Source: Agromyces ramosus (GTDB taxonomy: Bacteria > Actinomycetota > Actinomycetes > Actinomycetales > Microbacteriaceae). Taken from it: 64,000 bases of DNA. Below are positions 2,118 through 59,388 of this stretch, in pieces. The DNA is taken from contig NZ_SGWY01000001.1 of NCBI RefSeq assembly GCF_004216665.1, positions 1,116,001-1,180,000 of the forward strand, in the 5' to 3' direction. Made by a program: the position numbers and the translations under genes. Position 1 is the first letter of the stretch. Each line of letters starts with the position of its first letter. The notes beneath the pieces are model-generated. The model saw nothing but the letters and a program-made list of their open reading frames with translations. It ran no database searches and was not told the DNA's origin.

Positions 2118-4037
2118 ATGACTTCCGAGTGGTGGCGCACTGCCGCGATCTACCAGATCTACCCCCGGTCGTTCGCCGATGCGAACGGCGACGGCATGGG
2201 CGACCTCGCCGGCATCACGAGCCGGCTCGGTGACCTGCAGGAACTGGGGATCGACGCGATCTGGCTCTCCCCCTTCTACACGTCTCCGCAGCGCGACGCC
2301 GGCTACGACGTCGCCGACTACTGCGACGTCGACCCGCGATTCGGCACGCTCGCCGACTTCGATGCGATGCTCGCCGAGGCGCACGCCCGCGGCATCCGCG
2401 TGATCATCGACCTGGTGCCGAACCACTCGTCGGACGAGCACGAATGGTTCCAGGCGGCGCTCGCCGCCCCGGCCGGCAGCGCCGAGCGGGCCCGCTACCT
2501 GTTCCGCGACGGCCGCGGCCCCGGCGGCGACGAGCCCCCGAACAACTGGGAGTCGGTCTTCGGCGGCCCGGCCTGGACGCGCGTCGTCGAGCCCGACGGC
2601 ACCGCCGGCCAGTGGTACCTCCACCTCTTCGACAGCTCGCAGCCCGACTTCGACTGGACGAACGACGAGGTGCGCGAGGAGTTCCGCCGCATCCTGCGCT
2701 TCTGGCTCGACCGCGGAGTCGACGGATTCCGTGTCGACGTGGCCCACGGCATGATCAAGGCCGACGGCCTGCCCGACTACACGCCTCCTGCCGAGGGCGG
2801 CAGCATGGGCGGCGCGGGCGGCGTCGTCGAGCCGGTGGTGTTGTCGGCTGGCGCGGGCGCGTCGGTCGGGTCGGCCGAATCGGTGGTGTCGGTCGGGTCG
2901 GCGGGTGAGCTCGTCGGCGCCGGTGTCGGGTCGGCGGCCCGTTCCGCGGCCGGCGCTGCGGCGGGTGGCGCGGCGGCGGCGGGCGCGGCGGCGGCCGTCG
3001 CTGCGGCGAGTTCCGCGGCGGGTCCCTCGGTCTCCGCGACTCGGGAATCCGTCGGTGTCGACGCGACCGGTGTCGCACTCGAGCCCGCGATCAGCGACGA
3101 GGCCGGCGATAGGGCGCCCTATTGGGGACAGGACGGCGTCCACGAGATCTACCGCGACTGGCGCGCACTGCTCGACGAGTACCCCGGCGAGCGCATCCTC
3201 GCCGCCGAGGCCTGGGTCGACCCGCTCCCCCGCGTCGCCAAGTGGGTCCGTCCTGACGAGATGCACCAGGCGTTCAACTTCGCCTACCTCGAGACGCCGT
3301 GGAACGCCGCGGCCCTCCGCACGGTCGTCGACGCCTCGATCGCCGCGTTCGGGGGCGTCGGCGCTCCGTCGACCTGGGTGCTCTCCAACCACGACGTGGT
3401 GCGCCACGCCACGCGTCTCTCCGTCAGCGAGGCCAACCCGCAGGGCCACGGCCTCGGCCCCCGCTCGAAGGGCCTGCCCGCGTACGCGCCGGGCGTGCGG
3501 CGCGCCCGCGCCGCGACCGCCCTCATGCTCGCGCTGCCCGGCTCCTCGTACCTGTACCAGGGCGAGGAGCTCGGCCTGCCCGAGGTCATCCACCTGCCCG
3601 ACGACGCCCGCCAGGACCCCACGTGGTTCCGCACCGACGGCGAGCGCTACGGCCGCGACGGATGCCGCGTGCCGATCCCGTGGGAGGCCGACGCGCCGAA
3701 CTACGGCTTCGGCCCCGACGGCGATCCGTGGCTCCCGCAGCCGGCGCAGTGGGCGGAGCTCGCCCGTGACCGCCAGCGCGGCGTCGAGGGCTCGACGCTC
3801 ACGCTCTACCAGGACGCGCTCCGCCTGCGCCGCGAGCACGACCTCGGCGCCGGATCGCTGGAGTGGCTGTCCGGGTTCCCCGAGGCGATCGTCGCGCTGC
3901 GCAACGGCGACGTCGTCGTGGTGGCGAACACGGGCACCGAGCCCGTCGAGCTCCCCGAGGGCGAGTTGCTGCTCGCGAGCGGCCCGCTCGACGGCCGCTC
4001 CCTCCCGCACGACACGACGGCCTGGCTCCGCGCCTGA
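2118..4037 (+). CDS. GH13 alpha-glucosidase with low-complexity insertion
   Basis: This is a 639-residue cytoplasmic GH13 (oligo-1,6-glucosidase/alpha-glucosidase type) that would release glucose from maltodextrins. The opening WWRTAAIYQIYPRSFADANG is the family signature. Catalytic motifs are GFRVDVAH (nucleophile Asp, about residue 205), ILAAEAWVDP (acid/base Glu) and LSNHDVVRH (transition-state Asp). Between residues about 222 and 331 there is a stretch almost entirely of Gly, Ala, Ser and Val, absent from the paralogue at 11279-12967, which goes straight from the nucleophile region to HEIYRxW. The protein is otherwise complete. No clear ribosome-binding site precedes the ATG. It is divergent from malE and shares the operator region. 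Confidence 0.93.
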   Translation: MTSEWWRTAAIYQIYPRSFADANGDGMGDLAGITSRLGDLQELGIDAIWLSPFYTSPQRDAGYDVADYCDVDPRFGTLADFDAMLAEAHARGIRVIIDLVPNHSSDEHEWFQAALAAPAGSAERARYLFRDGRGPGGDEPPNNWESVFGGPAWTRVVEPDGTAGQWYLHLFDSSQPDFDWTNDEVREEFRRILRFWLDRGVDGFRVDVAHGMIKADGLPDYTPPAEGGSMGGAGGVVEPVVLSAGAGASVGSAESVVSVGSAGELVGAGVGSAARSAAGAAAGGAAAAGAAAAVAAASSAAGPSVSATRESVGVDATGVALEPAISDEAGDRAPYWGQDGVHEIYRDWRALLDEYPGERILAAEAWVDPLPRVAKWVRPDEMHQAFNFAYLETPWNAAALRTVVDASIAAFGGVGAPSTWVLSNHDVVRHATRLSVSEANPQGHGLGPRSKGLPAYAPGVRRARAATALMLALPGSSYLYQGEELGLPEVIHLPDDARQDPTWFRTDGERYGRDGCRVPIPWEADAPNYGFGPDGDPWLPQPAQWAELARDRQRGVEGSTLTLYQDALRLRREHDLGAGSLEWLSGFPEAIVALRNGDVVVVANTGTEPVELPEGELLLASGPLDGRSLPHDTTAWLRA

Positions 4038-4046
4038 CCCCACGCA

Positions 4047-4095
4047 CGGATGCCGCGGCGGCGCGCCGCTCGCCGGGCGCGCGCCGCGGCATCCG
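4047..4095 (+). terminator. GC-rich hairpin after alpha-glucosidase
   Basis: CGGATGCCGCGGCG pairs with CGCCGCGGCATCCG around a GC-rich loop, ending about 55 nt after the GH13 stop. It is a likely terminator without a U-tract and is built on the GGATGCC/GGCATCC heptamer. Confidence 0.55.
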
Positions 4096-4150
4096 CTCCC
4101 CCCGCCGGGCGCCGCGCCGCAGCATCCGCTCCCCCGGCTTCCTCTCGATT

Positions 4151-4206
4151 GCATGACGAGACGAGTGCTGCATCCTCCATACGGGCTCGATGAGCTCTCG
4201 TCATGC
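4151..4206. repeat. 56-bp palindromic element A (DUF559-associated)
   Basis: Perfect 11-bp arms GCATGACGAGA (4151-4161) and TCTCGTCATGC (4196-4206) enclose 34 nt. The right arm contains the stop codon of the DUF559 gene that ends at 4201. Its reverse complement resembles element B (5235-5290), which has the same length. Related 54-bp elements surround the second DUF559 gene. Confidence 0.75.
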
Positions 4207-5145
4207 GAACGCAAGCCGGTCGAGGCGACGGAACGGCACCGCAGCGGCGGAATGCTCGGCAGCGCGGTGTCCCCACCGGTGCCCGCCTCGCCGAACGAGC
4301 TCGAGGATGCCGCTGCTGACCGCGTCCCACTCGTTCAGCACCATCCGATAGCTGAGTCGCACCACGGTGTAGCCGCGCATGACGAGCTCGAAGTCGCGGC
4401 GCCGGTCGGCCTCGAACTCGGGGCCAGTGTGGAATCCCTCGCCATCGACCTCGATGACGAGCCGATCGCCGACGAGCAGGTCGACGTGGCCGACCCGTGG
4501 GATGAACACTTGCACCCGATGCCGGATGCCGTGGGTGCGGAGGAACAGCCGCACGATCGTCTCGATGCCCGACGCGGACCCCGGGTTCACGCGATCGACG
4601 AGAGATCTCCGCGATGAGGGGGCGAGTGCTCGCACCTGATCGAGGTCGCCGACGGAGATCGCTCCCACCGACACGGCCGAGTCCATGGCCACGATCGCCG
4701 CCGTCGGCTCGGCGCAGGCGAGCATCTCGGCGAGGGCGATCGGCAGGGCATCCCGCGCGCCCGTGATCACGGGGACGGTGCGATAGTGCAGGCACACCGC
4801 ATGGCGCCGCCGGTCGAGCGGTTCGTCGGAGGCATCCGGGTTCCTGAGCCTCCCGGTGCTGCTCGGGACCCTCACGTGCAGGAGCGGATCGCCGAGCAGC
4901 CAGACGCCTTCGAGACGTGCTGCGGATGCCGCCGTGACCGCGCCGCCCACGCGAGCCGCCCGCACGACGTCTCGTGGGGCATCGGGGATGGCGAACCATC
5001 CGCGCCGGACCCGCTGAATTGCGTGATCCGACACTGCTGCCGACACGGCGGCTCGCGGAATGCCACCCCTGTCGAGCTCGCGGTACGAGAGGGCGCCGCC
5101 GTTCGCGCGGATGAACTGGATGACGTGACCATGCTTGCGGTCCAT
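4201..5145 (-). CDS. DUF559 / Vsr-like endonuclease-fold protein with AbiEi-type N-terminal domain
   Basis: A 314-residue protein. The N-terminal ~80 residues (HGHVIQFIRANGGALSYREL...AIQRVRRGWFAI) look like the winged-helix domain seen in AbiEi-type antitoxins. The C-terminal ~110 residues carry the DUF559/REase_MTES_1575 signature of the PD-(D/E)xK fold: VGHVDLLVGDRLVIEVDGEG followed by FH, DRRRDFELVMRGY and VVRLSY, with Asp, Glu-x-Asp and His as candidate catalytic residues. DUF559 relates to Vsr mismatch endonucleases; the function of this architecture is not established. The ATG at 5145 lacks a good ribosome-binding site, so the start may differ. The stop codon lies inside palindromic element A, and element B lies 89 nt upstream. 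Confidence 0.82.
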   Translation of the reverse strand: MDRKHGHVIQFIRANGGALSYRELDRGGIPRAAVSAAVSDHAIQRVRRGWFAIPDAPRDVVRAARVGGAVTAASAARLEGVWLLGDPLLHVRVPSSTGRLRNPDASDEPLDRRRHAVCLHYRTVPVITGARDALPIALAEMLACAEPTAAIVAMDSAVSVGAISVGDLDQVRALAPSSRRSLVDRVNPGSASGIETIVRLFLRTHGIRHRVQVFIPRVGHVDLLVGDRLVIEVDGEGFHTGPEFEADRRRDFELVMRGYTVVRLSYRMVLNEWDAVSSGILELVRRGGHRWGHRAAEHSAAAVPFRRLDRLAFA

Positions 5146-5234
5146 CAGGGGAGTCTGCGTGCCCTGATCTGCGTCGGTCAGCGGCCCTACATCATCGAGG
5201 GACGATCGACCGGATGGCCGCCTTGTCGAGGAAT

Positions 5235-5290
5235 GCATGACGAGAGCGCGACGAGTTTCGCCTGGAGCATCCGACCGCGGCTGATCATGC
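5235..5290. repeat. 56-bp palindromic element B (DUF559-associated)
   Basis: It begins GCATGACGAGAGC, identical over 13 nt to the start of the reverse complement of element A, and ends TGATCATGC. The outer arms GCATGA/TCATGC are still complementary; the inner arm is decayed. It has the same 56-bp length and inverted orientation relative to A, and lies upstream of the DUF559 gene. Confidence 0.6.
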
Positions 5291-5408
5291 AAACGCTCGT
5301 GGCCTCCGCGGAGGAGGTCGGCTGAGATGGCCGCTCGGTGCGCGCGCGGACGCGGCCAGGCGGGTGCGCAGCCCGGCCAGGAAGGGCGGCGGGCCGCCGC
5401 GGCATCCG

Positions 5409-7589
5409 CTAGTTCGTGTTGGCGTAGAGCCACTCGAGCGGGTCGACCTTGGTGCCGTCGACGCCGCCGATGCGGATCTCGAAGTGCAGGTGCGGGCCGG
5501 TCGACATGCCCGTGTCGCCGGTCGTGCCGATCACGTCGGCCACGTGCACGGTGTCGCCCACCTCGAAGCGGCGCGAGTCGTACTCCATGTGCGCGTAGAC
5601 GCTGGTGATGAGCTCGCCGTCGATCACGTGGTCGATCATCATGACGACGCCGAGCGAGCCGCCGGAGTCGGTCGACACGGCCACGGTGCCATCGGCGATG
5701 GCCTGGATCTCGGCGCCGAGGCCCGGGTTGAAGTCCTGGCCGCCGTGGTCGCTCGAGCACCCGGCGCAGTTGCGGTAGCCGAAGTGGTCGCCGATGTGCA
5801 CGCCGACGGCGAAGGGCCACTGGATCGTGCCGGCCGGGTTGTTCGTGAAGTCCCCGGCGGCGCGGATGCCGGCGGCCGCCGCGTACTCCTGGATGGTCTG
5901 GTGCTCGTAGCCCTCGCGCTGCATGCTCTGCGCCACGATGTCGCCGTTCACCACCACGCGCTGCCCGTCGATCGAGTCGGTGCCGTAGTTCGCGAGAGCC
6001 AGCGCCTGGACATCCTCGGGCGACAGCAGCGAGAGCGACGGGATCGTCGTGGCCACGGCGAGGAGCGCCGCGAAGCTCATCGCGACCATGCTGACCATGC
6101 GGCCGGCCGCGCGGCGCCGACGGGTGGGGGCGGATGCCGCGGGGCGCGTGCTCGGGCGGCTCGCGGCGGGCACGGGCATCCGGCGAGCCGCCGCGCCGTG
6201 CCGCACGTCGGAGCGCACCGCTCCGACACGGGATCCGCGGGAGCGCGAAGCACCGGCCCGGGAGGCGTCGGCGCGGAGCGTGTCGCCTCGAGGCGTAGCG
6301 GCGAGCTCGGGCGAGCGGCGCGTCGACGGGGTCGCGTCGGCCGCGGAAGCCGGACGGACTGGCTCCGGCGTCGCTCCGAACCCGAGCAGCTCGGAGACTC
6401 CGGTCACGTCGGCCGGCACCACGGGCGACGGGTCGGATTCACGCAGTCGATCGCGGCCGCGGAGCGGGGCCGCCTCGAGGTTGAGGGACGCCCGCGACGG
6501 ACCCGTGGACGGATCCACGGTCGGCAGCGCACCGGCGGCGGCGGCGATCGCCGCGGCGAATCCGGCGGCCGCGTCGGCCGGCGGCACGACGCCTGAGGAA
6601 GCGCGGGCTACGGGACCGGATACGAGCCCAGCGGACGCGGAGGCCGCGGTGGCGGCGATCCCGGCCGTGCCCGTGATTCCGCCGACGAGGCTCGCGAGGT
6701 CGCCGTCGATCGCGTCGAGCGCGGCGGGCATCGACGCGCCACGGCGTGGACCGGCCGGAGCGGATCCGGAGGTCGATCGCCTGCCGGCCTTGCCTGCCTT
6801 CGGAGCCTTCTCGGCCTTGGGGGCCTTTCGGGCCTTCTCCGCCTTGGGAGCCTTCGCCGCCTTCCGATCCGCCCGCGCGCTCCGGCCGCCGTGATCGCCG
6901 CGACGGCCGCGAGGTGCGTCCACGTCGGCATCGCTCGCGAAGTCGGCATCGTCGTCGCCGAGCCCGGCGAACAGCGCGTCGAATCCGGGTGCCTCGTCGC
7001 GGCGAGCGGCCGAGCCGGCGCCGGGAGCCGTCGAGCGGCGGGGGGAAACGGAGGAGGCCGAGCTGCGACCGGAGGAGCGGTCGGCCTGCTCGGCCTCGGA
7101 GGGTGGGGAGGTGTCGACGCCACGGCGCCGAAGCGCTGTGGTCTCGACGGCCTGATGGGACGCGGCATCCGCGGCGCCGAAGATGGAGTCGAAGGCGGGA
7201 CGCTGGGGGGCGGGCTGGGCGGGTGCGGGAGCCTGCGGCGCCGAGATCTGCACGGCTGGGGCGACTGGGGCGGTCTGCTGCTGCATGGCCGTGGCGGCCG
7301 GGGCGGGCGGCTGCTGCATCGCCGTGGCGGCTGGGGCGGTCTGCTGCTGCATCGCCGTGGCGGCCGGGGCGGGCGGCTGGTGCGTGGGATAGCCGGCCTG
7401 CGCCTGCTGCACCGGATACCCGGCGGGCGGCGGTGCGGCGAATGCGGCGGCGGCCGCCGCGGCCGCGAGGCGCTGGGCCTCGGCCGTCTCCCGTTCCCGG
7501 ATCTCCCGTCTCGTCAGGGGTCGCTCAGGCCGCAATGGGACCTGGGTGCCTGGCGCAGAACCGTCGGGCACGAGGGGGGACTCGAGCAC
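5409..7589 (-). CDS. Membrane-anchored M23-family metallopeptidase with long disordered N-terminus
   Basis: A 726-residue protein. About 495 N-terminal residues are Ala/Pro/Ser-rich, with a PAATAMQQ-type repeat near residues 70-115 and a basic KAPKAEKARKAPKAEK run near 235-260. A single membrane segment follows (MVSMVAMSFAALLAVATTIP, about 497-522). The C-terminal domain has the M23 (LytM) zinc motifs HGGQDFN (about 611-617) and HLHFE (about 696-700), so it probably cleaves peptidoglycan cross-links outside the cell. The orientation implies a cytoplasmic tail. The start is GTG (7589) with GAAGGTCC upstream; an internal start is possible. Similar enzymes act in cell division and wall remodelling, but no specific role is shown here. 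Confidence 0.88.
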   Translation of the reverse strand: MLESPLVPDGSAPGTQVPLRPERPLTRREIRERETAEAQRLAAAAAAAAFAAPPPAGYPVQQAQAGYPTHQPPAPAATAMQQQTAPAATAMQQPPAPAATAMQQQTAPVAPAVQISAPQAPAPAQPAPQRPAFDSIFGAADAASHQAVETTALRRRGVDTSPPSEAEQADRSSGRSSASSVSPRRSTAPGAGSAARRDEAPGFDALFAGLGDDDADFASDADVDAPRGRRGDHGGRSARADRKAAKAPKAEKARKAPKAEKAPKAGKAGRRSTSGSAPAGPRRGASMPAALDAIDGDLASLVGGITGTAGIAATAASASAGLVSGPVARASSGVVPPADAAAGFAAAIAAAAGALPTVDPSTGPSRASLNLEAAPLRGRDRLRESDPSPVVPADVTGVSELLGFGATPEPVRPASAADATPSTRRSPELAATPRGDTLRADASRAGASRSRGSRVGAVRSDVRHGAAARRMPVPAASRPSTRPAASAPTRRRRAAGRMVSMVAMSFAALLAVATTIPSLSLLSPEDVQALALANYGTDSIDGQRVVVNGDIVAQSMQREGYEHQTIQEYAAAAGIRAAGDFTNNPAGTIQWPFAVGVHIGDHFGYRNCAGCSSDHGGQDFNPGLGAEIQAIADGTVAVSTDSGGSLGVVMMIDHVIDGELITSVYAHMEYDSRRFEVGDTVHVADVIGTTGDTGMSTGPHLHFEIRIGGVDGTKVDPLEWLYANTN

Positions 7590-55608: not shown

Positions 55609-56955
55609 GTGAACAACCGCACCCTCGTCAAGCATCTCGCCGCGCTCCCCGACGGCCCCGTCACCGTCGCCGGATGGGTCGAGACCGTGCGCGATCAGAA
55701 GAAGGTGCAGTTCGTCATCCTCCGCGACGAGTCCGGCGCGGTGCAGCTCGTGAACCCCGCCACCCGCGAGCTCGATCCCGAATCGGCGGACGCGGCATCC
55801 GCCGACGCCTTCGCGGTCACCGAGGAGATCTCGGCGCTGGCCCACGGGTCGTTCATCAGCGTCACCGGCCAGCTGAAGCACGACGAGCGCGTGAAGCTCG
55901 GTGGCCTCGAGGTGAAGATCGCGTCGCTCGCCGTCGTCGCCGAGGCCGACCCCGAGACGCCGATCGCCGCGGACTCGAGCCTCGACAAGCGCATGGACTG
56001 GCGCTTCCTCGACCTGCGCCACCCCAAGCAGAACCTCATCTTCCGGATCCAGACCACGTTCCTGCACGCCCTGCGCACGTACTGGGTGGAGCGCGACTTC
56101 GTCGAGATCCACACGCCCAAGCTCATGGCCTCGGCGTCGGAGTCGCGCGCCGAGCTCTTCGAGGTCGGCTACTTCGACGGCACGGCCTACCTCGCCCAGA
56201 GCCCCCAGTTCTTCAAGCAGATGGCACAGCCGGCCGGCTTCGGCAAGGTCTTCGAGGTCGGGCCCGCGTTCCGCGCCGACCCCTCGTTCACCTCGCGCCA
56301 TGCCACGGAATTCACGTCGATCGACGCGGAGATGAGCTGGGTCGACTCGCACGAGGACGTCATGCAGATGCACGAGGAGCTCCTCGTCGCCGGCATCACC
56401 GCCGTGAAGGAGAAGCACGGCGCCGAGATCGCCGAGCTCTTCGGCATCGAGCTCGAGGTCCCCACGCTGCCGTTCCCGCGCATCCCGCTCGCCGAGGCGA
56501 AGCAGATCGTCGCCGACCGCGGCTACGTGATCCCCCGCACCGACGAGGACATGGACCCCGAGGGCGAGCGCCAGATCTCCGCCCATGTCAAGGAGACCTA
56601 CGGGCACGACTTCGTGTTCGTCACCGACTACGCCTCGAGCATCCGGCCGTTCTACCACATGCGCCACGAGGGCGACCCCAGCCTCACGAACTCGTACGAC
56701 CTCATCTACAACGGCGTCGAGATCTCCACGGGAGCACAGCGCGAGCACCGCATCGACCTCCTCGTCGAGCAGGCGAAGGAGAAGGGGCTCGACCCCGAGG
56801 AGCTCGAGTTCTACCTCGACTTCTTCCGCTACGGCGTGCCGCCCCACGGCGGCTTCGGCATGGGCCTCGCCCGCGTGCTGATGCTCATGCTCGAGGAGCA
56901 CTCGATCCGCGAGACGACGTACCTCTTCCGCGGCCCGACGCGCCTGCTGCCGTAG
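55609..56955 (+). CDS. aspS: Aspartyl-tRNA synthetase, archaeal/eukaryal-type
   Basis: A 448-residue class II synthetase without the bacterial GAD insertion, hence archaeal-type AspRS. The N-terminal OB fold has VAGWVETVRDQKKVQFVILR; motif 1 region HPKQNLIFRIQ; AQSPQFFKQM; motif 2 FRADPSFTSRHATEF; motif 3 GVPPHGGFGMGLARVL. The OB-fold position that is Trp in Thermococcus AspRS (WVW) is Glu here (WVE). GTG (55609) lies 8 nt after TAGGAT (55595-55600), a possible leaderless start. It could charge tRNA-Asp only, or also tRNA-Asn. Confidence 0.92.
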   Translation: MNNRTLVKHLAALPDGPVTVAGWVETVRDQKKVQFVILRDESGAVQLVNPATRELDPESADAASADAFAVTEEISALAHGSFISVTGQLKHDERVKLGGLEVKIASLAVVAEADPETPIAADSSLDKRMDWRFLDLRHPKQNLIFRIQTTFLHALRTYWVERDFVEIHTPKLMASASESRAELFEVGYFDGTAYLAQSPQFFKQMAQPAGFGKVFEVGPAFRADPSFTSRHATEFTSIDAEMSWVDSHEDVMQMHEELLVAGITAVKEKHGAEIAELFGIELEVPTLPFPRIPLAEAKQIVADRGYVIPRTDEDMDPEGERQISAHVKETYGHDFVFVTDYASSIRPFYHMRHEGDPSLTNSYDLIYNGVEISTGAQREHRIDLLVEQAKEKGLDPEELEFYLDFFRYGVPPHGGFGMGLARVLMLMLEEHSIRETTYLFRGPTRLLP

Positions 56956-57029
56956 CCCGCTCCCGCGCCGACCCGCCTCGGCCCGCCCCGCCCCCGACCC
57001 GCCCCCGCTCGAACCGCGCGGCATCCGTC

Positions 57030-57083
57030 GAGATGACGCGAATCGTCGTGATACCGCGCACGATGGACGGTTCGCGTCATCTC
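57030..57083. repeat. 54-bp palindromic element C (DUF559-associated)
   Basis: Perfect 13-bp arms GAGATGACGCGAA (57030-57042) and TTCGCGTCATCTC (57071-57083). Its right half matches the reverse complement of element D at 20 of 22 positions, so it is inverted relative to D and E. The stop codon of the DUF559 gene (57082-57084) overlaps the arm end. Confidence 0.8.
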
Positions 57084-57999
57084 ACGCCGCCCCGGGGCGC
57101 CAGCCGGCCGCGACCAGCGCCTCGTGCACGCGCATCAGGCGTTCGCGGCGCCTGACGCCGACATGCTCGGCGTTGAATCGGATGACCCGCCAGCCCTCTC
57201 GGGCGAGGTCGTCCAGCCGGTCGACGTCCCTCGCGTACTGCCTGCGATCCGTGCGATGGTGCTCGCCGTCGTACTCGACGATCACGCGGTAATCGCGGTA
57301 GACGAGATCCCCGATGGCGATCCGGCGACCATGCCGGTCGAGGATGTCGACATTGATCTCCGGCTCCGGCAGCCCGTACTCCACGAGATCCAGCCGCAGC
57401 AGCGTTTCCGCCGGCGAGTCCGTTCGCGCGCGCACGGCTCGCAGTGCATGCACGAGACGACGGAAACCTCGACGAGCGCCTCGACGCCCGACCGCGGCAG
57501 CGAGCACGTCCATCGTGGCGATCGGACTCGACCTTCGCACGAGTGCGTCTCCGAGCACCACGAGGTCGCGGTGACCGAGCTCCGCTGCGAGCTGGCACCA
57601 CGCGTCGACGGCCGACACCATCTGCAGCCCGCGAACCAGTTCGGCACGGATGTCGCAATGCCGCACTCGGTGGCCCCGGACGCCCGACGCCCTCGGGACC
57701 CCGTGCGGTTCGAACGCCGCGACGTCGAGACGCCCGTCGTCGCGGGGCCGGATGGGGAGGCCATGGAGGGCCCCCGCCGTGCGATGCGAGAAGACCTCGC
57801 AGCTGCGCATCCGGACGCAGTAGGCGCGGCAGCGCAGCTCCAAGTCGGGGGTCGCCGATGCGACGACGCGCACGCCGCGGAACGGCCGGACCAAGTCGCG
57901 GCCCCGCATCCGCTCGTCGCCGAGCCCTGCTGCTCGCCCGTCGGCGAGCGAGAACGGGGTGCTGTCGAGCCAGGGCGGGACGGGGATTCGTGCGGTCAC
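57082..57999 (-). CDS. DUF559 / Vsr-like endonuclease-fold protein (second copy)
   Basis: A 305-residue protein. The C-terminal domain shows the DUF559/REase_MTES_1575 signature: EINVDILDRHGRRIAIGDLV, YRVIVEYDGEHH, YARDVDRLDDLAREGWRVIR and FNAEHV, with Asp, Glu-x-Asp and His as candidate active-site residues. The N-terminal ~190 residues (PFRGVRVVASATPDLELRCR, FSHRTAGALHGLPI) resemble the helical/wHTH part in AbiEi-associated DUF559 proteins. The GTG at 57999 is a best guess; frames upstream lack signals. Three palindromic elements lie around it (57030, 58125, 58271). It shares the family, but not the full N-terminus, of the protein at 4201-5145. Confidence 0.78.
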   Translation of the reverse strand: MTARIPVPPWLDSTPFSLADGRAAGLGDERMRGRDLVRPFRGVRVVASATPDLELRCRAYCVRMRSCEVFSHRTAGALHGLPIRPRDDGRLDVAAFEPHGVPRASGVRGHRVRHCDIRAELVRGLQMVSAVDAWCQLAAELGHRDLVVLGDALVRRSSPIATMDVLAAAVGRRGARRGFRRLVHALRAVRARTDSPAETLLRLDLVEYGLPEPEINVDILDRHGRRIAIGDLVYRDYRVIVEYDGEHHRTDRRQYARDVDRLDDLAREGWRVIRFNAEHVGVRRRERLMRVHEALVAAGWRPGAA

Positions 58000-58124
58000 A
58001 CCCGCATGTTCTCGCGTGGCCCGACACGCCGGCGCGGAAACCCACATGAGGGGCTGCCTCCCCCGTGCAGCTCGCCTGTGGAGGACGACTGCGGCCGCCG
58101 CCCGCCCGACCCTCCCCGGGCGGC

Positions 58125-58178
58125 GAGATGACGCAAACCGTCCTTCGGGAGAAGCCCACGAACGTTTGGCGTCATCTC
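58125..58178. repeat. 54-bp palindromic element D (DUF559-associated)
   Basis: Arms GAGATGACGC-AAAC and GTTTG-GCGTCATCTC with a one-base bulge. It differs from element E at only 2 of 54 positions, although the sequence between D and E is unrelated. It lies 126 nt upstream of the DUF559 start. Confidence 0.8.
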
Positions 58179-58270
58179 TGCGGCCGGATAAGAGGGGAAC
58201 GGGCGGTGAGGTGACCGGGCGGTGGCGGGCGGCGGGGCGAGGGCAGCGGGCGGGCCGGGGCGACGGCGGC

Positions 58271-58324
58271 GGGATGACGCAAACCGTCCTTCGGGAGAAG
58301 CCCACGGACGTTTGGCGTCATCTC
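58271..58324. repeat. 54-bp palindromic element E (DUF559-associated)
   Basis: GGGATGACGCAAAC to GTTTGGCGTCATCTC, 52 of 54 positions identical to element D and in the same orientation, 92 nt away. Confidence 0.8.
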
Positions 58325-58467
58325 GGCGGCCGGAGAAGGGCGGACGGGCGGCGAGGCGAGGGCAGCGAGGGCGCGGCGAGGTGGGGCGAGGGCAGCGGGC
58401 GGGCGGCGGGGCGCGGCGGGGCGCGGGGCGGGGCCTAGGGCCGCGCGCTGAGACGTAGGCTCGGAGG

Positions 58468-59388
58468 ATGACGGTCGACGCGACGCGCATGGTGCGGATC
58501 GAGGGGGGCACCTTCCGCATGGGCTCGGCCGAGTTCTATCCCGACGAGACGCCGGTGCACGAGCGCGCGGTCGACGCGTTCGAGATCGACCTCCACCCCG
58601 TGACGAACGAGCAGTTCGCGGCGTTCGTCGCGGCTACGGGCTACGTCACGGTCGCCGAACGCCCGCTCGACCCGGCCGACTTCCCCGGCGTCGACCCCCG
58701 CGACCTCGTGCCGGGCGGTCTCGTGTTCACGCCGACCCCCGGCCCCGTCGACCTGCGCGACTGGCGGCAGTGGTGGCGGTGGGGCGAGGGCGCGAGCTGG
58801 CGGCATCCGCTCGGCCCCGAGTCATCCGTCGACGACAAGCCGACGCACCCGGTGGTGCAGGTGAGCCTCGAGGATGCCACGGCCTACGCCGGGTGGGCGG
58901 GCAGGCGGCTGCCCACCGAGGCCGAGTTCGAGTACGCGGCGCGTGGCGGCCTCGACGGCGCCCGCTTCGCCTGGGGCGACGAGGAGCGGCCCGACGGACG
59001 CCTCATGGTGAACCAGTGGCAGGGCCACTTCCCCTATGAGAACACCGGTGCCGCGGGCTGGGTCGGCACCTCGCCCGTCATGACCTTCCCGGCCAACGGC
59101 TACGGGCTCTTCGACGTCACCGGCAACGTGTGGGAGTGGACCACCGACTTCTACACGCCGCGACACGAGGTGCCCGGCGTCGCGCCGGTCGACGCGGCCG
59201 GCCGGGAGAACCTGCTCGCGGCGGCATCCGCCGAACCGGGCTCGCGCATCCCGCGCCGGGTGCTGAAGGGCGGCTCGCACCTCTGCTCACCCGAGTACTG
59301 CCTGCGCTACCGACCCGCTGCGCGCTCGCCCCAGGCCGACGACACGGCGACATCGCACATCGGGTTCCGCTGCGTGCGAGACGCCTGA
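58468..59388 (+). CDS. Formylglycine-generating enzyme (SUMF1 family)
   Basis: A 306-residue FGE-sulfatase-domain protein that converts the sulfatase active-site Cys to formylglycine. Motifs: GGTFRMGSAEFYPDETPVHE, PVVQVSLEDATAYAGWAGRR, LPTEAEFEYAARGGLDGARF, NVWEWTTDFYTPRHEVPG and, with both copper-binding Cys (273 and 278), GSHLCSPEYCLRYRPAARS; GFRCVRDA ends the protein. TAGGCT ends 6 nt before the ATG, so the gene is probably leaderless. It is convergent with the operon that encodes the likely substrate, the sulfatase. Confidence 0.93.
   Translation: MTVDATRMVRIEGGTFRMGSAEFYPDETPVHERAVDAFEIDLHPVTNEQFAAFVAATGYVTVAERPLDPADFPGVDPRDLVPGGLVFTPTPGPVDLRDWRQWWRWGEGASWRHPLGPESSVDDKPTHPVVQVSLEDATAYAGWAGRRLPTEAEFEYAARGGLDGARFAWGDEERPDGRLMVNQWQGHFPYENTGAAGWVGTSPVMTFPANGYGLFDVTGNVWEWTTDFYTPRHEVPGVAPVDAAGRENLLAAASAEPGSRIPRRVLKGGSHLCSPEYCLRYRPAARSPQADDTATSHIGFRCVRDA

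Follow-up and report, generated by a model that had tools for sequence, protein, structure and literature searches.

A DUF559-type nuclease gene of Agromyces ramosus and its flanking palindromes suggest a palindrome-linked type of mobile element not described so far

REP palindromes have so far been tied to one class of enzymes, the RAYTs, as far as the accessible part of PMC3733652 goes, and one large group of them, the CGTC REPs, is described there as ‘apparently’ being without a dedicated transposase. The locus considered here, a DUF559-type nuclease gene with palindromes around it, shares with REPtrons and REPINs, as the available parts of PMC3733652 and PMC8049555 portray them, the flanking of a single enzyme gene by palindromes, enzymes that keep to their own repeat when a genome has more than one repeat family, scattered copies including dimers and clusters, and vertical inheritance of the enzyme. 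Two traits of REPtrons, namely many-copy palindromes dispersed outside genes and an enzyme gene located between its cognate palindromes, were both found. In contrast to REPtrons, the enzyme is a predicted Vsr-like PD-(D/E)XK-type nuclease and not a Y1 HUH transposase, and cassettes of other specificity appear to replace one another; the palindromes have a median length of 58 nt as compared with 20–40 bp for REPs, and the genome of origin holds ∼19 copies, whereas 69–235 are given for E. coli REPINs (PMC8049555, in the part available). The hairpins of REPs, 20–40 nt long, have an unpaired GTAG or CGTC foot. Among 14 copies of the palindrome type found in the window, the one type inspected in this respect, the CGTC string is located inside the arms, and no tetranucleotide outside the arms is conserved; the one record in which a link between CGTC REPs and DUF559 was sought, S. 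meliloti pSymB, was without DUF559 match. The literature covered, which comprised neither preprints nor most subscription papers, yielded no description of a nuclease–palindrome partnership: the MTES_1575 Vsr-type domain is named within a multi-domain protein (PMC3710099, in part), and the accessible portions of the MTES_1575/DUF559 family literature, PMC3710099 among it, make no mention of palindromes.

The window, i.e. the entire stretch of 64,000 nt that was analysed, contains the nuclease gene on the minus strand at 57082–57999 (305 aa, with an inferred GTG start at 57999), with aspS on one side and an FGE-sulfatase-like gene on the other. Three 54-nt palindromic elements, to which no strand is assigned, lie exactly where the original prediction had placed them around this gene: C (57030–57083; covariance-model E 1.2e-12) at its 3' side, sharing 2 nt with the stop of the minus-strand frame that ends at 57082; D (58125–58178; E 2.1e-13), 126 nt upstream of the inferred start; and E (58271–58324; E 2.1e-14), a second upstream copy that differs from D at 2 of 54 positions. 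C had also been described as inverted relative to D, with 20 of 22 bases of one half matching the reverse complement of D. This count is correct for the right-hand halves (by eye), but the inverted sense means little because each element is itself palindromic, and the left halves of C and D match at 19 of 22 positions in direct orientation. The elements have the form GARRTGACGCGAANCGTC – 18/19 nt – reverse complement, with variation among the 14 copies, and single-stranded (DNA) folding gives each of them a better result than any of its 200 shuffles (z between −4.4 and −5.1). The covariation score of the window type is 0.175 versus 0.133 for shuffled alignments and is reached by 4 of 500 shuffles, while two of five covariation measures fail to outperform shuffling (248/500 and 309/500); pairing of the arms is thus likely, with modest support. 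Apart from a single tRNA, Rfam has no match across the window, and PADLOC has none in it. A second DUF559 protein is encoded in the window on the minus strand (frame 4201–5820, DUF559 match at ∼4294–4533); its N-terminus is different and winged-helix-like, and a scan of positions 2800–6800 around its gene revealed no palindrome pair of the C/D/E kind.

The protein encoded between the palindromes matches Pfam DUF559 with 30.3 bits (cut-off 20.6) and MTES_1575 with 27.3 bits, below the cut-off of 38.2; the single NCBIfam match in the window, likewise to DUF559, is sub-threshold. Comparison of its high-confidence AlphaFold2 model (mean pLDDT 95.6) with solved structures using Foldseek yields Rv2827c (1zel_A) as the sole match at E ≤ 0.001, a weak to moderate one (E 4.1e-4, TM 0.38, 224 columns), and next Vsr, PvuRts1I, I-Bth0305I and 3hrl at E 0.18–0.8, amid unrelated proteins that score similarly. 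The match to Rv2827c, the best for the whole protein and covering most of it, relates the protein to the AbiEi-type antitoxins of type IV toxin–antitoxin systems, and the N-terminal part (57418–57999, minus strand) is a putative DNA-binding half. Unlike AbiEi-type antitoxins, however, the window protein possesses an additional nuclease domain, and unlike in AbiE, no DUF1814 or nucleotidyltransferase toxin adjoins the gene, the neighbours being those named above. The C-terminal domain (57082–57417, minus strand; residues ∼195–305, inferred limits) resembles Vsr and I-Bth0305I in that the fold search pairs it with 1cw0, 3r3p and 3hrl, albeit weakly (1cw0 with E 0.18; 3r3p with E 0.5 and TM 0.66 on the target); among solved structures, a search by profile weakly matched PvuRts1I, 3hrl and 3r3p, and Vsr was absent from it. 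In an alignment of 76 sequences, comprising the window protein and those 75 of 80 related loci that are free of stops and longer than 265 aa, residues S195, E198, E242, Y243, G245, H248 and D258 of this domain are invariant; the motif of the Vsr and I-Bth0305I enzymes is named EDxHD. Of the 76, 62 match MTES_1575_REase (PF18741) and 50 match DUF559 (PF04480) at E ≤ 0.01. Fold and conserved acidic and histidine residues fit a Vsr-like PD-(D/E)XK assignment, and DNA cleavage is a predicted activity.

A covariance model built from 14 copies identifies in the genome of origin 19 window-type elements at E ≤ 1e-6, of which 14 are the training copies, along with a few weaker ones. In the ten regions of this genome that were examined, the copies are intergenic or overlap a gene end, and their positions include the 5' and 3' sides of genes as well as the spaces of divergent gene pairs. 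Among dispersed copies, some are located close behind stop codons (by eye), and doublets with short gaps are present. A weak match (E 0.22) lies 90 nt past a second DUF559-family gene (C3:184470–185345). The same genome (G000) exhibits an unusual local amplification at C4:346556–346972, where six palindromes with mostly a ∼58-nt period are clustered, with divergent genes on either side. Among 40 genomes including the genome of origin, 22 contain model matches (21 of the 25 from the genus and 1 of the 15 others), and at 13 of 30 nuclease loci a palindrome recognised by the model (E < 0.01) is found directly beside the gene. Several of the model-positive loci (e.g. L097, L103 and L107) possess palindromes whose sequence is of another type, and the model therefore responds partly to shape. 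The original prediction had named a scatter of copies unrelated to DUF559 genes as evidence against itself; taken literally, 72 of the 88 distinct copies listed are scattered in this manner, yet REPs behave likewise, and 16 of the 88 have a DUF559 match at a distance of 450 nt or less, versus 0.165 expected. The latter count is based on 47 DUF559 intervals (two entries were merged, and one interval is in a genome without listed copies) and involves seven genes, two of which (in G022 and G024) are accompanied by palindromes that differ in sequence from the window type. Two genomes, G009 and G018, contain 14 and 15 model matches (both strands counted), yet no close nuclease.

Relatives of the nuclease are present in all 25 genomes of the genus, and a contig scan confirmed at least 573, of which the best 80 were kept; these are mostly from Microbacteriaceae, with others from Arthrobacter, Specibacter, a Ruania MAG and further taxa. 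Most of the nuclease loci other than the 13 with a palindrome recognised by the model are likewise flanked, by palindromes that are different in sequence and of the same type on both sides. When the 250 nt upstream were compared with the 350 nt downstream, using swapped pairs as the null, 70 of 100 non-redundant Actinomycetota loci exceeded the 99th percentile, 81 exceeded the 95th and 19 fell below the latter, whereas in distal control windows more than 1.1 kb away 0 of 98 exceeded the 99th and 7 of 98 the 95th percentile (from 110 loci, L118, L130 and L167 had been removed as redundant and, of the resulting 107, seven for short flanks). It is this comparative evidence, together with palindrome types tied to nuclease lineages and the cassette-like exchange described below, that strongly supports the pairing of nuclease and palindromes at the heart of the original prediction; the prediction as a whole is partly supported, the roles it had envisaged for a REP/RAYT-like pair, as mobile element, defence unit or regulatory circuit, being candidate ones. 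In 171 palindromes, with the median length given above, complementarity amounts to 91–100% at the outer ten positions, which is partly by construction, and to 74–85% at positions 11–19. Among 14 further DUF559 loci, L291, L293 and L296 of the main family have matched flanking palindromes, and L286, L287, L289, L290, L292 (encoding a 160-aa Vsr-like protein), L294, L295, L297 and L298, scoring 21–35, offer no convincing match of the flanks. The other two of the 14, L285 and L288 of G019, belong to another DUF559 subfamily with a different N-terminus and are likewise flanked by matched palindromes; the partnership may thus reach beyond the nuclease family studied here.

Three further palindrome types were counted, and each is concentrated in the genomes that carry the corresponding nuclease. 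GAGAGTGCACTCGTCGCCC has 37 matches in G019, 16 in G012 and 1–9 in the other 23 genomes (reversed-pattern control 0–4), GAGCCTGCACGATTCGTCGTTC is matched 9 times in G024 and once in the remaining 24 genomes, and CTGTGACGCAGTANNTGCTGA has 25 in the genome of Specibacter cremeus and 0–3 in seven others. All four carrier genomes have a nuclease gene that is enclosed by two of the matches, and several of the Specibacter copies exhibit an identical change in both arms. A palindrome type is not always confined to one nuclease lineage: L132, L133, L151 and L177 from Leifsonia, Agromyces and Microbacterium share one type with a core near CGCAACACGCCGC, their proteins being 37–47% identical across genera. 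Among pairs with less than 50% protein identity, 5 of 2373 reach a palindrome score of 40. A Mantel test on those loci where hairpins occur both upstream and downstream (71 of 107) yields a small correlation between protein and palindrome similarity (rho 0.138) that lies above all 500 permutations, and it is small because palindrome similarity is mostly lost below ∼60% protein identity.

Comparison of two sites across genomes revealed both occupied and unoccupied states. Between ligD and ku, which could be read at 28 of 30 loci, a window-type element is present in four (G000, G009, G051 and G071) and part of one is apparently retained in G047; in G023 the site contains a palindrome of the type that flanks that genome's own nuclease. 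Between aspS and the FGE gene, readable at 26 of 30 loci, six sites carry a cassette with palindromes in a stretch of 1.2–1.5 kb, 14 are shorter than 300 nt and offer no room for a cassette, five contain other DNA, and in G050 a 575-nt stretch, too short for the gene, is bounded on each side by palindromes; G023, read separately, likewise has a cassette there. By eye, the unoccupied aspS–FGE sites of G009 and G041 contain an apparent half palindrome. Solo palindromes were also encountered: those at the aspS–FGE site of G012 and G069 (L214) are near the CGCCGAGTGTTAACG type, to which a palindrome at the ligD–ku site of G012 is related (the loci of G012 being L219 and L230), and those of G065 (L218) and G003 (L225) at aspS–FGE resemble the palindrome next to L109, a distant nuclease of G003.

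Relatives that are at least 62% identical in protein sequence mostly occupy syntenic positions, and free transposition is therefore not evident. A nearest-neighbour test at the aspS–FGE locus was not clean (for 2 of the 16 palindromes possessing a partner, this partner was the nearest), and a broader ortholog test followed. Aligned flank segments are better conserved than the nuclease DNA in 82 of 88 ortholog pairs (median 81% vs 67%), a difference exaggerated by comparing whole genes with aligned segments only. In 61 of the 70 ortholog pairs scored for palindromes, out of the 88, a flank resembles the opposite flank of its own locus more closely than its counterpart in the other species (median 45 vs 18.5); since pairs share loci and the best hairpin pair was picked within a locus, these are non-independent and favour this outcome, and the unbiased test is the swapped-pair comparison of 100 loci described above. 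Of 39 pairs with both flanks, 36 entered an edge test (L100/L142, L122/L143 and L123/L143, with nucleases at least 91% identical, were excluded); four lacked a flank within 1.5 kb and seven had similar palindromes. In the 25 left, syntenic pairs with different palindromes, flank homology ends near the palindromes, with its closest gap within 30 nt on 34 of 50 sides; at 3 of 100 edges it continues inside the cassette for more than 30 nt. The end of homology at the cassette edge may partly reflect the end of coding sequence, which would sharpen the picture. The clearest cases are L104/L105 and L105/L107 of Agromyces and L139/L174 of Herbiconiux, with flanks 93–96% and nucleases 48–51% identical; in L139/L174 the flanks are 96 and 95% identical, the nucleases 51%, and the palindromes unrelated. 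Divergence in place of such an extent is hard to credit, and exchange of the whole block is therefore favoured. Hence, the sequence comparison suggests that palindrome, nuclease and palindrome are exchanged as a unit.

Our best reading is that the window contains one member of a widespread actinobacterial single-gene cassette system whose protein joins an AbiEi-like N-terminal half to a Vsr-like domain. As delineated by comparative sequence analysis, the cassette comprises the nuclease gene between two or more palindromes of ∼54–62 nt with a sequence specific to the nuclease lineage. Association, lineage specificity, dispersal as solo and doublet copies, coordinated flanks, cassette limits and presence or absence at fixed sites are all observed, and binding, cleavage and mobilisation by the nuclease are proposed. 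We consider it rather probable that this is a REPtron-like mobile system in which a PD-(D/E)XK-type nuclease takes the place of the tyrosine transposase. The AbiEi-like half would recognise its own palindrome, either as a hairpin or as a two-armed duplex site, and the Vsr-like half would nick or cut there; this would promote the copying of palindromes into intergenic sites, and whole cassettes would be exchanged between related bacteria and displace each other. Binding of the nuclease to the flanking copies would probably also control its own expression. More tentatively, one may view the cassettes as competing selfish alleles, each nuclease cutting or nicking its own palindrome, spreading copies of it and ousting cassettes with a different specificity from fixed intergenic positions. 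If so, the specificities of enzyme and palindrome would turn over together and far faster than the surrounding genome, and the system would be a homing-like, REP-forming one unrelated to tyrosine transposases. Unlike the gene of the homing endonuclease I-Bth0305I, the gene considered here appears to leave its presumed site uninterrupted and has palindromes on both sides, although exchange would fit homing.

The main rival is a regulatory one: an AbiEi-like autoregulator to which a nuclease domain has been fused would bind to the palindromes, and the dispersed copies would mark promoters under its control or be leftovers. The promoter of the gene for Rv2827c, the nearest solved fold, has two sets of inverted repeats to which the protein indeed binds (PMC7319586, in the part available), and palindromes are found at a median of 114 nt upstream of the start of the protein match; they are also found downstream, however, at a median of 44 nt, dispersed copies occur after stop codons and between divergent genes as well (by eye), some arms reach 27–29 bp and thus exceed usual half-sites, and the apparent exchange of whole cassettes is left unexplained. 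We regard this explanation as unlikely. Less likely still is a conventional insertion sequence with the palindromes as terminal repeats, the nuclease as cut-and-paste transposase and the solo and doublet copies as miniature derivatives. One gene between matched ends in the 1.2–1.5 kb stretches at aspS–FGE, and doublets with short gaps, would suit such an element, but in the genomes examined (G000, G010, G019 and G024) a single nuclease gene is flanked per palindrome type, relatives are syntenic, and no target-site duplication was seen by eye in the two pairs read (L139/L174 and L105/L107). That we are dealing with ordinary bidirectional terminators, or with stabilisers of RNA, unconnected with the nuclease, as the location of some dispersed copies right behind stop codons might suggest, is very improbable and was rejected: no T-tract terminator-like site was found around the elements in window positions 56900–58600, and terminators would neither be private to a lineage nor match on both flanks while distal controls do not (0/98). 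Ordinary REPs moved by a RAYT elsewhere in the genome, which intergenic placement, doublets and clusters would resemble, can practically be dismissed, as the Y1 (RAYT-type) transposase family PF01797 has no match at E ≤ 0.01 in eight genomes including that of origin, the E. coli control being positive.

Taken together, the cassettes point to a type of mobile element, linked to palindromes, for which no description was found. If the REPtron-like reading with a nuclease in place of the transposase is correct, a second, unrelated class of enzymes with palindromes of its own would mean that such partnerships arose more than once. It would also supply a candidate function for many DUF559-type genes of Actinomycetota, and would give dozens of natural enzyme–site pairs with which to study how DNA specificity changes.
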